This document shows positions 17,634 through 24,075 of a stretch of 37,840 nt of DNA, one piece after another. Source of the DNA: Chlorobiota bacterium (GTDB taxonomy: Bacteria > Bacteroidota > Bacteroidia > Bacteroidales > VadinHA17); the NCBI GenBank assembly GCA_013152085.1, contig JAADHC010000051.1:1-37840 (forward strand). The letters run 5' to 3'. The number at the start of each line of letters is the position of its first letter. Positions within the stretch are counted from its first letter, which is position 1. Position numbers and translations under genes: made by a program. The notes beneath the pieces are model-generated. The model saw nothing but the letters and a program-made list of their open reading frames with translations. It did no database searches and was not told the DNA's origin.

Positions 17634-18044
17634 TCAGAACCCAGATTCCCAACCCGGTTTATAGATCCTTCCCCATAATTTCATGGCTTCCTGATCCTTA
17701 ATATGTCCGTTACCGGTATCACATTTCAGGATCCTGCCTGTCCGGCTGGCAATATTGGCAAGGTGACAAAGGAGGGTACTTTTACCGCCTTCGTCAATCG
17801 GGGAGTGCTGACCGGTTTTCCCCCGGATAGCATCAAAAAAGTTTTCGATGTGAAGGGCAGTCATCCCGCCGCCACCTCCGAGTGCTGTTCCGTCCTCGCC
17901 CGGATCGGATTTACTGTCTTTTATCAGTTTCCCATTCCGGTCATATAGTTTATAACCACTCCTGTCAAGAAAAACGGTCCCTTCCGAGCCATATATGATC
18001 GTTCCGCGACCACCACCATAAGTATTACAGCCATTTCTGCTTTT
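17634..18044 (-). pseudogene. 3' remnant of a Gfo/Idh/MocA oxidoreductase gene
   Basis: Minus-strand translation gives about 136 residues matching the C-terminal part of exported Gfo/Idh/MocA dehydrogenases: GGGRGTIIYGSEGTVFLDR, GYKLYDRNGK, HIENFFDAIRG, GGKSTLLCHLANIASRTGR, and EAMKLWGRIYKPGWE at the end. The NAD-binding Rossmann domain and most of the protein, normally around 300 further residues, are missing. The remnant is in the same reading frame as the upstream double-DUF1080 gene and is separated from its end by that gene's TAA stop (18045-18047). It looks like the product of a deletion that removed the 5' part of this gene. An internal ATG at 17864 could start a 76-aa peptide, but that would not fold as a functional enzyme. 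Confidence 0.88.
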
Positions 18045-19799: not shown

Positions 19800-21203
19800 T
19801 CAGAATGACAGGCAAAGCCCGCTGTACACACCAATGGAGTACGGGTGTGCATGAACCGAGCTGTATTTGTTCAGGGGATTCAGGTAGTATTTCAGGGTAG
19901 GTTCGAGACGAAAGCTAAACGATTTGCTGATCTTATATGACATTCCAACACCTACGATACCATTCAGATTGGCTGTCCGCAGGTCGGCGGTATTCCCGAG
20001 CGGGATAACATCACTACCGGAGAGCACCAATGATTTACCACTGACAAGGAAACTTGATCCGATACCACCCAGCAGGTTGACACCAAAACCGGCATCAAGC
20101 AGGTTATACCGCAGGATTATGGGAATTTCGACAAATTCAAAATCCTGTTTTAACCGGACACCAACGGTTTCATACAATCCCGAACCTACACGGGTAAGCA
20201 GAAAATCAGACTGGTCCATTCCGGCAGGGCTGGTTTGATTGGCGATAAAAACAGGATTCTCATCGTATGCCAGCCTTCCTTCGGAAACATGGATAAATTC
20301 ATTACCCTTGGTTTCGAGGAGGGCAAGTTCACCGGTTTTTATGCTTTTGAAAGCAATGACCTCATCAGCCATCTGCCCCATTCTGGCATAATTTACTCCC
20401 GTCTGCACGGAAAATCTGCTTTTCCCTTTTGAATAATTGACCGTAAATCCACCGGCATAAGCTACCACCCCGTTTTCCTGGGTATTGAGGTAAGAGATAT
20501 AGTAGTTATCCTTCGAAGTCAGGGTACGGTAAGTATAAAACGGGCCAAAATTACCACCGATGCTCCATTGTGCCTTCGATGATGTTGCCTCAGCAATATC
20601 CCCTGTTTGGGGAAGCATAGACCAGGCAGGAACTGCTTTTCTTTTCACGGACAGATCAATTGGTGCCTCAAGAACCTGTGAACGGGCTGCAAGTACGGTA
20701 AATACATCCTGGTTTTTACCGGTATATTCCTGCACAACCTGTGTTTTATTTTCCGGTAACACAACCATAGCTGCAATAACCGGCTGCGTTTCATGAGCAG
20801 GAGCGTTGACGGTTTGTGTTTCAGAGTTCCGAACTTCTGCAGGACGGGGTTCCGAAGCAACCTGTTTTATTTCCCTCTCCCGGGAAGTAACAGCCGTTAC
20901 GGTTTTTTTCCCTGCCTGAACAGGGGTAACGGGCTTGGAAATTGTCTGCGTATCATTAGATAAAACCGGCTGATCAGCCAGATTCCTGTCCACAGGTTTT
21001 CGCAGAAAGATCAGCCAAAAAGAGCCAATGATCATCGTGAGCAATACAGAAGCAGCTGCCAGCCGATATACCGGTATGAAATTGAATTTCCTCCGGGATA
21101 TTCTCTGTTCAACCGTTTCCCATACGTCGGCCGGTGGGGTAACATTAAGATCTATCAACCCTTCTCTAAAAACCTCATCGATATGTTTGTCTTCACGCTT
21201 CAT
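19800..21203 (-). CDS. Membrane-anchored protein with C-terminal outer-membrane beta-barrel, partner of ECF sigma factor
   Basis: The 467-aa protein has no ordinary signal peptide. It starts with a ~44-residue charged N-terminal part (HIDEVFREGLIDLNVTPPADVW), then a single membrane segment (about 45-66), a ~145-residue low-complexity linker rich in Thr, Val, Gln and Glu, and a C-terminal barrel-like region (about 213-467: WSIGGNFGPFYTYR to YSIGVYSGLCLSF) ending in an aromatic residue as outer-membrane barrels do. Its ATG overlaps the TGA of the ECF sigma gene (ATGA), so the two are translationally coupled. That coupling and the cytoplasmic N-terminus suggest an anti-sigma-like role, with the C-terminal part as a possible envelope sensor. 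This role is inference; no known anti-sigma domain was recognised. Confidence 0.75.
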   Translation of the reverse strand: MKREDKHIDEVFREGLIDLNVTPPADVWETVEQRISRRKFNFIPVYRLAAASVLLTMIIGSFWLIFLRKPVDRNLADQPVLSNDTQTISKPVTPVQAGKKTVTAVTSREREIKQVASEPRPAEVRNSETQTVNAPAHETQPVIAAMVVLPENKTQVVQEYTGKNQDVFTVLAARSQVLEAPIDLSVKRKAVPAWSMLPQTGDIAEATSSKAQWSIGGNFGPFYTYRTLTSKDNYYISYLNTQENGVVAYAGGFTVNYSKGKSRFSVQTGVNYARMGQMADEVIAFKSIKTGELALLETKGNEFIHVSEGRLAYDENPVFIANQTSPAGMDQSDFLLTRVGSGLYETVGVRLKQDFEFVEIPIILRYNLLDAGFGVNLLGGIGSSFLVSGKSLVLSGSDVIPLGNTADLRTANLNGIVGVGMSYKISKSFSFRLEPTLKYYLNPLNKYSSVHAHPYSIGVYSGLCLSF

Positions 21204-21784
21204 TCCGACTGATCAACCGGTTTATCCAGATTTTTAATTTTTTCCTGTAAAATCATACGGGCTCTGGATAAATTGGACTTGGACGTTCCTTCGGAAATAT
21301 GCAACATATTGCTAATCTCCTTATGTGAATATCCCTCAATGGCATACAGGTTAAAAACCATCCTGTATTGCGGGGAGAGGCTCCGGATAAGCCTGATCAG
21401 ATCCATTGCCGACAAACGGTCGATAATGGCATCCGGAACGGCCGGATCCTGGAAATCCACATCTTCAAGAGACGGCGCTGCATTGGACTCCCTGCGAAGT
21501 TTTTCCAAAGCGGTATTCACAATTACTTTCCGTACCCATCCTTCGAAAGAGCCTCTGAAGCCAAACTGTCCAAGGTTTTGGAATACCTTTACAAATCCAT
21601 CCTGCAACATATCTTTCGCCTCATCATCATTCCGGCTGTACCGCAGACAAACTGCATACATTTTTGGAGCAAGAAGCCGGTACAATTCAAACTGGGCTTC
21701 CCTGCCCCCGGAAAGACATGCATCTATGATATTCCTGTAATCCCGGTTCAAAATATGATTTAAGATTAATCCTGCAAATTGCAA
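21200..21784 (-). CDS. ECF-type RNA polymerase sigma factor
   Basis: The product (up to 194 aa) has sigma region 2 (YRLLAPKMYAVCLRYSRND, then DEAKDMLQDGFVKVFQNL and FEGWVRKVIVNTALEKLRR) and sigma region 4 with a helix-turn-helix (YRMVFNLYAIEGYSHKEI, then SEGTSKSNLSRARMIL). This is the group IV (ECF) architecture. There is no ATG before the conserved part: the frame begins with TTG at 21784, and another TTG at 21751 (LNRDYRNIIDAC) is an alternative start, so the N-terminus is uncertain. The stop overlaps the start of the membrane-anchored barrel gene by ATGA. A GCAACC element with a CATC box 16 bp downstream lies upstream, consistent with autoregulation. Confidence 0.92.
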   Translation of the reverse strand: MQFAGLILNHILNRDYRNIIDACLSGGREAQFELYRLLAPKMYAVCLRYSRNDDEAKDMLQDGFVKVFQNLGQFGFRGSFEGWVRKVIVNTALEKLRRESNAAPSLEDVDFQDPAVPDAIIDRLSAMDLIRLIRSLSPQYRMVFNLYAIEGYSHKEISNMLHISEGTSKSNLSRARMILQEKIKNLDKPVDQSE

Positions 21785-21855: not shown

Positions 21856-21881
21856 GATGATTTTCAGTATCTAAAGGTTGC
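21856..21881 (-). promoter_or_regulatory. Candidate ECF-type promoter for the sigma factor gene
   Basis: On the minus strand GCAACC (21881-21876) is followed after exactly 16 bp by CATC (21859-21856). ECF promoters commonly have an AAC-containing -35 and a CGTC-like -10 at this distance. It points to the sigma gene starting at 21784 or 21751. It mirrors the element at 21914-21939 on the other strand. Confidence 0.5.
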
Positions 21882-21913
21882 GTTAAAGAAAAATTAAGAA
21901 TGATTTAAGATAA

Positions 21914-21939
21914 GCAACCTTCTGACGGTCGATTACGTC
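21914..21939 (+). promoter_or_regulatory. Candidate ECF-type promoter for the glycosyltransferase gene
   Basis: GCAACC (21914-21919) is followed after exactly 16 bp by CGTC (21936-21939). The start codon at 21948 lies only 9 bp after the CGTC, so the transcript would be almost leaderless, or translation would start at the in-frame ATG at 21963 (MVSLSVIII). Confidence 0.5.
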
Positions 21940-21947
21940 ATACAAAT

Positions 21948-22793
21948 ATGGCACAAAAAAGTATGGTCTCTTTATCTGTCATCATTATTACCCACAACGA
22001 GGAAGAAAATTTGCCCCACTGCCTGGCATCTGTCAGGGATATTGCCGACGAGATCGTGGTTGTGGATGATTTTTCAACCGACGGGACTATGAAAATCTGC
22101 CGTGAATTCGGCGTCCGGGTTGTTCTGCATAAATTTGAAGGACACATTGAGCAAAAGAACTTTGCCCTGACACAGGCCTCTTTTCCGTATGTTCTGTCTC
22201 TGGATGCTGATGAAGAAGTTTCGAAAACGCTGTATCAATCCATTTCAGCAATAAAAGAAAACTGGAGATATGACGGATACTGTTTCAACCGTTTAAATAT
22301 TTATTGCGGCACACCGATTAAGCACGGGGGATGGTATCCCGATAAAAAACTGCGGTTGTTTGACAAAAGAAAAGCCCGATGGGGAGGGATCAACCCGCAT
22401 GATATGGTAATCCTGAAGCCGGGAAGCAAGACAAAGAAACTAAAAGGGGATCTGCTTCATTACAGCTATGCCTCAACAACAGAGCATATCTTTAAGGTAA
22501 ACCGTTATACGGATATTTTTTCAACAGCATACGTCCGGCAGGGCCGTAAAGCAGGCTTTCTCCATATTGTTTTCAACCCTACCTGGAAATTCATCAGAAA
22601 CTATTTTCTTCGTCTTGGTTTTCTTGACGGATCCAAAGGCCTGTCCATTTGTGTAATCCAGGCATACGAGACTTTTCTGAAATATAGTAAGATCAATGTC
22701 CTCCTGAAGAATGGCGTTGATTACCCTCCCGGGTTCCGCAGTATGAAATCCCCGGAGCTGTCTGTTTCCAAAGAATCGCTTATTGCTCACTGA
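21948..22793 (+). CDS. Family 2 glycosyltransferase, WaaE/KdtX-like
   Basis: The 281-aa product has a GT-A fold glycosyltransferase family 2 domain: SVIIITHNEEENL at the nucleotide-sugar binding start, VVVDDFSTDGT, and the metal-binding LDADEE. The following HGGWYPDKKLRLFDKRKARWGG is typical of the WaaE/KdtX group, which adds glucose or a similar sugar to the lipopolysaccharide core. The protein is expected at the cytoplasmic face of the inner membrane. The exact sugar and acceptor are not assignable. Start is the ATG at 21948; an ATG at 21963 is an alternative that fits the candidate promoter better. The serpin gene follows 46 bp downstream on the same strand. Confidence 0.88.
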   Translation: MAQKSMVSLSVIIITHNEEENLPHCLASVRDIADEIVVVDDFSTDGTMKICREFGVRVVLHKFEGHIEQKNFALTQASFPYVLSLDADEEVSKTLYQSISAIKENWRYDGYCFNRLNIYCGTPIKHGGWYPDKKLRLFDKRKARWGGINPHDMVILKPGSKTKKLKGDLLHYSYASTTEHIFKVNRYTDIFSTAYVRQGRKAGFLHIVFNPTWKFIRNYFLRLGFLDGSKGLSICVIQAYETFLKYSKINVLLKNGVDYPPGFRSMKSPELSVSKESLIAH

Positions 22794-22839
22794 AGTGGCA
22801 TAAATTTTGTTATTCTTTTCAGGTAAAAAAGAAAACACC

Positions 22840-24075
22840 ATGAGAAAAATAATGATTTCAGCCATTTGGGTTGCAATGGTTATTACCGGCTGTTCCAAAA
22901 CCAATCCGGGTCCTGCAGACGGCCCGGTTCCGTTGAATATCAGTGAAAAATCAAAGCAGATCATTTCTGCCGATAACCGCTTTGGATTTGAATTGTTTAA
23001 CAAAATACTCAAAACCGATTCTTCTGAGAACCTGATGATATCCCCATTCAGCGTTTCAACAGCGCTTTCCATGACCCTGAACGGGGCTGACGGACAAACG
23101 CTGGAGGATATGAAACAGGTACTTCATTTTAACGACCTGGTATCGGATGATTTTAATGCTTCAATGAAAGAACTGATCCATGCTATTTTATCCGTTGACC
23201 CTGAAGTCATCATGAATATTGCAAACTCAATCTGGTACCGGCAGGATTTTTTTGTTGAGCCGGCATTCCTGGAAATTAACCGGAAAACCTATGATGCCGA
23301 AGTCAACGCATTGGATTTTAACAATCCGGCCAGCAAAGATATCATCAACGGCTGGGTTGCCGATCAAACGAACAATAAAATTACGGAAATCGTCGACCGG
23401 ATCAATCCGCTGGATGTCATGTTTCTGATCAATGCGATCTATTTTAAAGGAACCTGGAAGTACCGGTTTGACGAAGATAATACACAGACCCTCCCCTTCC
23501 ACATTTCACCATCGGCCACCGTAAATGTGCCAACCATGATACGGAAAGGAGATTTTGCATGGTTTCACAACAACATCCTTACCGCTGCCGAACTGGACTA
23601 TGGCCGGGGGAATTTCAGTATGGTCATTCTGTTACCCAACCAGGGCTATGAACTTTCCGATATTTCTGATGCGCTAACGGCTGAAAACTGGAATAACTGG
23701 ATGAATGGTTTTGATACACTTTATGATGCAAAAATTTTCCTTCCCAGGTTCACATTCAGTTATGATAAACCGCTCAAGGAAACACTGTCTGACCTGGGTC
23801 TGGGTATTGCTTTCAACCCGGATTCGGCCGACTTTTCCCGGATAAACCCGGACAAACAGTTATATATTTCAAGTGTTAAACACAAAACTTTTATTGAAGT
23901 CAATGAAGAAGGAACCGAAGCGGCAGCCGTCACTTCGGTAACTGTAGGTACTACATCTGTCGGGCCTGAAACAGCAATTATCATTGACAAACCTTTCATT
24001 TTTGTGATCCGTGAAAAAACCACCGGCGTCATCCTGTTTATGGGGAAAGTGGCACATCCGGCTTTGGAAGAATAA
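22840..24075 (+). CDS. Lipoprotein serpin (serine protease inhibitor family)
   Basis: Serpins trap proteases by a large conformational change after their reactive loop is cut. The 411-aa product begins with a lipoprotein signal (VAMVITGC, with C18 as lipidation site) and shows the serpin core: NLMISPFSVSTALSMTLNGA, INAIYFKGTWKYRF, and a hinge FIEVNEEGTEAAAVTS typical of inhibitory members. By counting from the hinge glycine (P15) the scissile bond would fall at Thr-Ser in VGTT-SVGP. The end KPFIFVIREKTTGVILFMG is the usual serpin C-terminus. I chose the ATG at 22840 because it starts the signal peptide; the longer frame opens with TTG at 22807. It probably sits on the outside of a membrane and protects the cell from host, competitor or self proteases; the target is unknown. 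Confidence 0.93.
   Translation: MRKIMISAIWVAMVITGCSKTNPGPADGPVPLNISEKSKQIISADNRFGFELFNKILKTDSSENLMISPFSVSTALSMTLNGADGQTLEDMKQVLHFNDLVSDDFNASMKELIHAILSVDPEVIMNIANSIWYRQDFFVEPAFLEINRKTYDAEVNALDFNNPASKDIINGWVADQTNNKITEIVDRINPLDVMFLINAIYFKGTWKYRFDEDNTQTLPFHISPSATVNVPTMIRKGDFAWFHNNILTAAELDYGRGNFSMVILLPNQGYELSDISDALTAENWNNWMNGFDTLYDAKIFLPRFTFSYDKPLKETLSDLGLGIAFNPDSADFSRINPDKQLYISSVKHKTFIEVNEEGTEAAAVTSVTVGTTSVGPETAIIIDKPFIFVIREKTTGVILFMGKVAHPALEE

Follow-up and report, generated by a model that had tools for sequence, protein, structure and literature searches.

Enterobacterial sigma-E drives its own gene and the dedicated small RNAs (sRNAs) RybB and MicA from a promoter type of its own. The locus described here lies in a 37,840-nucleotide stretch of DNA from a Chlorobiota bacterium (hereafter the window; contig C2 of a 3.38-Mb assembly), where an extracytoplasmic function (ECF) sigma factor gene and a glycosyltransferase gene are transcribed away from each other. 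Between them are two mirror-image copies of the sequence GCAACC-N16-CRTC, and with high probability the pair serves a single membrane-sensing regulator as back-to-back promoters. The resemblance to sigma-E is that of an envelope-responsive ECF sigma factor that drives itself and dedicated sRNAs, as is predicted for this locus, although the sigma group, the anti-sigma architecture, the promoter and the RNAs all differ.

The closest described systems are those of Bacteroides thetaiotaomicron, where Dma anti-sigma factors adjoin ECF21 sigma factor genes. As is predicted for the window, the Das1/Dma1 and Das2/Dma2 pairs consist of an ECF sigma gene followed by a gene for an anti-sigma factor with N-terminal binding helices, a transmembrane helix, a long and disordered tether and a barrel at the C terminus (passages of PMC13088901). 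According to the same passages, a dma2 mutant has das2 among its most strongly induced genes, which fits the prediction of an autopromoter made below. The B. thetaiotaomicron targets given there are different, namely nigD1 for Dma1 and BT_1555-1557 for Dma2, and these passages make no mention of a promoter motif, a serpin, a glycosyltransferase or an sRNA. In Flavobacterium psychrophilum SM6, one sigma/anti-sigma pair is likewise among the targets, but so are several components of the type IX secretion system (passages of PMC9723704).

A passage of PMC7366714 states that, as of 2020, none of the B. thetaiotaomicron ECF factors had a known motif. No published promoter for the Das/Dma group turned up in the literature searched, although an ECF21 motif may already have been predicted in print. 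The same literature yielded no report of an ECF-driven sRNA in Bacteroidota, and among the matches listed there was none in which an ECF sigma factor controls a serpin. An ECF-driven sRNA arm, like that of enterobacterial sigma-E, would be the new part of the system proposed here.

Architecture of the divergent locus

The features of the locus are as follows.

21881 to 21856, minus strand: predicted ECF promoter of the sigma/anti-sigma operon, GCAACC-N16-CATC, with −35 element GCAACCTT preceded by AC and −10 element CATC
21914 to 21939, plus strand: predicted divergent ECF promoter of the glycosyltransferase(-serpin) unit, GCAACC-N16-CGTC, with −35 element GCAACCTT and −10 element CGTC
21874 to 21921, no strand: the two −35 boxes, which together make an 8-bp inverted repeat with arms AAGGTTGC (21874-21881) and GCAACCTT (21914-21921)
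21200 to 21784, minus strand: ECF sigma factor (ECF21/Das-like by gene context), identified by Pfam regions 2 and 4 and by orthologs
19800 to 21203, minus strand: putative Dma-type anti-sigma factor, downstream of the sigma gene and overlapping it, assigned from its predicted architecture
21963 to 22793, plus strand: GT2 glycosyltransferase (PF00535), with its start moved from 21948
22807 to 24075, plus strand: miropin-like serpin (PF00079), with a likely start, in our own reading, at ATG 22841

Both elements, each with exactly 16 bp between its two blocks, and both arms of the repeat occur in the letters and at the positions given by a first-pass annotation of this DNA. The gap between the two −35 boxes is 32 nt. 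No other match to GCAACC-N16-CRTC is present in the window, where dinucleotide shuffles predict 0.10 sites and where two sites were attained in one shuffle of 100. Scans for sigma-70 promoters were uninformative (6 sites versus 9.5 expected).

The sigma factor (194 amino acids) has matches above cut-off to PF04542 and PF08281, and thus carries regions sigma2 and sigma4 only, as do ECF members of the sigma-70 family. Its start may be TTG 21784 or TTG 21751, codons 1 and 12 of the frame. Among the 25 NCBIfam matches listed, the general model TIGR02937 alone passes its cut-off, and the protein is filed under ECF21/Das by gene context.

The overlapping gene downstream encodes a protein with no Pfam or NCBIfam match. 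An AlphaFold2 model built from 39 aligned sequences has N-terminal helices (residues 7-38), a transmembrane-like helix (42-66), a disordered stretch (67-207) and a C-terminal eight-stranded beta-barrel (211-465). The predicted local distance difference test (pLDDT) score exceeds 85 in 20 of the 26 ten-residue blocks of the barrel; the mean for the whole model is 68.3 with a predicted template modeling score of 0.55, and the N terminus and tether are of low confidence. In Foldseek, the C-terminal portion matches the barrels of OmpA and NspA at target template modeling scores of 0.62-0.64, and the best E-value belongs to a Legionella porin with a score of 0.33. By this modeled architecture the protein has the Dma layout, and the two genes are a sigma/anti-sigma pair of an already known kind. 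A similar gene is found at E ≤ 1e-6 in 42 of 80 sigma loci from named relatives, a set described below.

Conservation of the predicted autopromoter and its outward-facing partner

Orthologs of the sigma factor were sought in 59 genomes of the same family, and the 30 best loci were fetched. A two-block element of fixed spacing 5′ of the sigma gene, as is characteristic of ECF autoregulatory promoters, is carried by nearly all of them: strict GCAACC-N16-CRTC is present on the sigma strand in 29, and the exception, L030, has 2 nt of upstream DNA. The two bases preceding GCAACC are AC in 27 of these loci and AA in two. We also scanned 80 named relatives, in each case up to a distance of 350 nt from the sigma gene; some of these relatives are family assemblies (e.g. 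L221, which is G011), such that counts from the two sets overlap. The strict sigma-side element is present in 34 of these loci, compared to a mean of 0.036 and a maximum of 2 in 500 rounds of shuffling. When spacings of 12-20 nt were considered, N16 was counted 34 times and all other spacings together four times, and the reversed pattern occurs near the sigma gene in none of the 80 loci. The earlier suggestion that the sigma factor drives its own operon is strengthened by this conservation and by the exact spacing, and stands as a prediction. In many g7 and g10 loci, by contrast, the sigma gene is preceded by an lpd-like frame that has its orientation.

The outward-facing element is present in seven of the eight loci in which a glycosyltransferase gene is divergent from the sigma gene, which favors the related suggestion that the sigma factor also drives this enzyme. 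These seven are the window, four of five loci in the genus g12 and both g14 loci, where GATC replaces CRTC. Among the named relatives, GCAACC-N16-SRTC faces outward in 15 of 80 loci, compared to 0.05 expected and a shuffle maximum of 1. The partner gene is a serpin in nine of these (L206, L207, L231, L232, L247, L257, L269, L274 and L280) and a glycosyltransferase in two (L221 and L224); L205 and L253 have a 60-aa or 306-aa frame in its place, and in L255 and L258 no frame was called. Considering all 80 sigma loci irrespective of promoter, a serpin is found in 18, lpd in 15 and a relative of the glycosyltransferase in two. From these occurrences, the serpin is the commoner divergent partner, and the glycosyltransferase is a predicted target in three genera. 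In the window the glycosyltransferase gene sits between the sigma gene and the serpin gene, unlike in the serpin-divergent loci.

Relatives of the glycosyltransferase begin at the methionine corresponding to 21963, making ATG 21963 a better start than 21948. With this start, the plus-strand promoter would leave a leader of just ∼15-20 nt. The distance from GCAACC to the glycosyltransferase start is 49 nt in the window versus 127-147 nt in four g12 relatives. No terminator-like site was found on the plus strand between the glycosyltransferase and serpin genes, and the serpin is probably co-transcribed with the enzyme. Among solved structures the serpin is closest to miropin-type serpins (PDB 5ncs and others), with 5ncs the nearest.

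We also considered whether relatives of the glycosyltransferase encoded elsewhere might be independent targets. We rejected this idea, as none of 26 such genes has GCAACC within 350 nt upstream (only ∼83 nt are available for one, L075, and more relatives exist), and the promoter therefore belongs to the locus and not to the enzyme. The first-pass annotation had gone on to link the regulator to lipopolysaccharide. Because the 26 relatives lack the element, this step is weak and the link unproven.

Extended promoter sites and two RNA families

A genome-wide search for the bare 6+4 motif, proposed earlier as a check, was mildly informative. It returned 22 sites, 15 of them inside open reading frames (ORFs) of at least 70 aa, compared to 4 sites when the pattern was reversed. 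We derived an extended pattern, ACGCAACCWT-N14-CRTC, from the sigma promoters. This pattern has three matches in the genome, all outside ORFs, versus none for the control: the sigma promoter and two others. The plus-strand site of the window is not in this set, since AA rather than AC precedes its GCAACC. One of the other two sites (C11:86988; L104 1999-2321) precedes a 72-codon frame with no Pfam match, and the second (C70:17754) has no convincing protein gene downstream.

Across the 59 family genomes, the extended pattern matches 101 sites in 52 genomes versus three for its reverse (summed by hand). Forty-two of these are sigma autopromoters, as matched by hand from coordinates, and are there partly by construction. 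The remaining 59 sites were all examined, and 57 are outside ORFs of at least 100 aa. In the wider order the signal is weaker than in the family, with matches in 55 of 247 genomes.

Frames downstream of the extended sites encode propeller-type proteins and lipoproteins, as well as five SusC-like receptors. Pfam searches with ten representatives identified PD40, TPR, LVIVD (in two), YCF48/BNR, Reg_prop, a TonB plug and sigma-70 regions 1.2-4, and left two unnamed. In g10 (L162-L174), a recurring lipoprotein of ∼332 aa faces a TPR gene, and it is the lipoprotein side that carries the ECF promoter; PD40 was found in the one copy scanned. Two candidates from the window's genome were set aside. The site before an LptF/G-like permease gene, in our own reading (C25:75062; L090), has GC instead of AC before GCAACC and is close behind the preceding frame. 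The other candidate was a site preceding a 338-aa frame (C1:1086; L001). The extended pattern is searchable and yields a candidate regulon of lipoproteins, receptors, the serpin and small RNAs without experiment.

Examination of the sites that lack a protein gene revealed two conserved RNA families, A and B; others, including L121, L157, L158 and L160, match neither. Family A, from the window's genome and g13, comprises RNAs of 157-169 nt with a hairpin at the end. The copy in the window's genome (C70:17754-17957; L102 1999-2202) consists of the ECF promoter and an RNA with a terminator (17789-17957), convergent to what we read as a thioredoxin-like frame. Plain BLAST recovered this copy and two short matches, one of which is its own terminator on the other strand, and this poor yield made a covariance model necessary. 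The model finds family A in seven of the 59 family genomes, namely the window's own and six of the seven g13 genomes, and among 247 genomes of the order it finds the own copy alone.

The ECF promoter precedes all seven family-A copies, and the RNAs begin 7-8 nt past CRTC. Six copies are the training sequences, which were derived from promoters. The seventh, from G029, is off the promoter list and was recovered with the model, yet it has ACGCAACC-N16-CATC 8 nt upstream of the RNA. Among 33 predicted base pairs, six have both partners changed in one or more of the sequences, and five of these six are in the terminator stem. Several pairs of the central stem are broken, and the covariation term is +0.87, not favorable overall.

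Family B is present in 12 of the 59 family genomes (g4, g11, g12 and g14), and its sequence lies downstream of an ECF promoter in all 12. Ten copies have the promoter as their own, but all ten are training copies that had been found through it, so this association exists by construction. The predicted RNAalifold structure has four pairs, and the model R2 is effectively a sequence profile. At the positions of the RNAs, no Rfam family scored above its gathering threshold for either family in the 11 loci searched. A sub-threshold match to anti-hemB coincides with the family-B RNA of L132 on the same strand (23.1 bits versus a gathering score of 49.5; E = 0.25). A match to BTnc060 in L118 was taken as chance, being on the opposite strand with 29 bits versus 228.9 required. 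The regulator of the locus appears, from these promoter associations, to turn on previously unnamed small RNAs as well.

These RNAs could instead be leaders, short peptide genes or mRNA 3′ ends, and not trans-acting sRNAs, which we regard as unlikely while giving it more weight than any other alternative. In favor of this, an invariant ATGTTA opens a frame in all seven family-A RNAs. However, the frame spans 7-9 codons in six copies and 52 in one, with neither its length nor its residues conserved, and an encoded peptide is the less likely interpretation. Family A is also closed by a hairpin whose stem changes preserve pairing, and the window's genome lacks a convincing gene downstream on that strand. 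The prospect of mRNA 3′ ends arises from family B, where the only two copies found independently of the promoter search (G011:C88, L194; G003:C1, L203) overlap the final 17 nt of an ECF-driven, LVIVD-type lipoprotein frame. With no promoter of their own, these two may represent an sRNA that moves between an mRNA 3′ end and an independent gene.

The probable reader of the promoters and the origin of the repeat

We consider it highly likely that the ECF sigma factor encoded at 21200-21784 reads the two elements, and that they are back-to-back promoters. Several observations weigh against this assignment. The strict element is missing 5′ of the sigma relative in 46 of the 80 named loci, including those of Chitinophagaceae; some of the 46 have short upstream DNA, and some carry GCAACT, N15 or N17 variants. 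On the outward side, the element is absent from the g12 genome G021, from the g13 loci, and from seven of the 16 serpin genes located within 700 nt of the sigma gene (L204, L209, L218, L236, L238, L259 and L261). Two of these loci, L236 of Sunxiuqinia dokdonensis and L261 of S. indica, do carry the autopromoter beside their serpin gene. Moreover, five of the 59 family genomes (G003, G007, G026, G029 and G041) have no close ortholog of the sigma factor, and G003, G007 and G041 nevertheless carry the strict promoter, whereas G029 has a variant before its RNA. A paralogous sigma factor or incomplete assemblies would explain promoters in such genomes.

These ortholog-less genomes raise the possibility that the elements are true ECF promoters read mainly by another ECF sigma factor, or by several. 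One of the three that retain the strict promoter, G007, is listed as 96% complete, and passages of PMC9723704 bring up overlapping ECF regulons in Flavobacterium SM6. However, the listed completeness of the five assemblies is 68-96%, such that the gene may be missing by chance. In addition, the autopromoter is present in all 29 fetched family loci with enough upstream DNA, whereas the 14 other ECF genes found in the window's genome all lack GCAACC-N16-CRTC within ∼350 nt. We therefore judge a different reader to be improbable.

The first-pass annotation had also drawn attention to the inverted repeat. A perfect 8-bp inverted repeat between two divergent genes follows the classic layout of an operator, which could be bound by a dimeric regulator with neither half serving as a promoter. 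This reading is very unlikely. Across the 15 named loci with an outward element the gap between the −35 boxes ranges from 22 to 147 nt, which strongly disfavors a functional unit built on the repeat. Lone copies precede many single genes and RNAs, the conserved unit extends beyond the repeat to take in CRTC at a fixed N16, and the family-A RNA begins 7-8 nt beyond CRTC. Because the gap varies so widely, the repeat is best described as arising incidentally where two copies of one promoter face each other, rather than as a fixed operator, and the two elements look like independent, outward-facing ECF promoters. That two GCAACC words face each other by accident might be suggested by the shortness of the pattern and by the many genomic sites inside ORFs, but is refuted by conservation across genera and by the exact spacing relative to shuffled sequences.

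With the sigma factor of this locus as the reader, its minus-strand promoter would create a self-amplifying sigma/anti-sigma operon, and the plus-strand promoter would bring the glycosyltransferase, and probably the serpin, into the same response. As modeled, the Dma-type anti-sigma factor would extend from the cytoplasm across the inner membrane as far as a barrel in the outer membrane, and would hold the sigma factor. By analogy with Das1/Dma1 and Das2/Dma2 of B. thetaiotaomicron, a disturbance of the outer membrane would free it. The freed sigma factor could then activate the two flanking units, the small RNA on C70 (17789-17957) and the 72-codon frame on C11, and in relatives the propeller lipoproteins, SusC-like receptors and second RNA family. 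Computation shows where the elements lie, how they are conserved and spaced, which genes surround them, the architecture predicted for the anti-sigma factor, and conserved RNAs starting at the promoter. In this scheme we infer the identity of the reader, the signal, and both the transcription of the RNAs and their action on other RNAs.

A more speculative extension, which we think rather doubtful, is that the locus belongs to a Bacteroidota counterpart of sigma-E with two output arms. A Dma anti-sigma factor anchored in the outer membrane would release the sigma factor, envelope proteins would be turned up, and the lineage-specific sRNAs A and B, both tied to this promoter, would silence mRNAs of outer-membrane proteins, with the co-regulated serpin closing the loop as inhibitor of the protease that cuts the Dma tether. 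The candidate regulon makes it testable whether repression in the envelope-stress control of Bacteroidota runs through sRNAs, as it does in enterobacteria.

Two further observations each come from a single locus. In one genome (L151; G016:C30:6382), an extended ECF promoter is located 5′ of a gene for a primary-type sigma factor. In L160, a match to the Acido-Lenti-1 RNA on the minus strand (2643-2687) scores above the Rfam gathering threshold at 39.1 bits.
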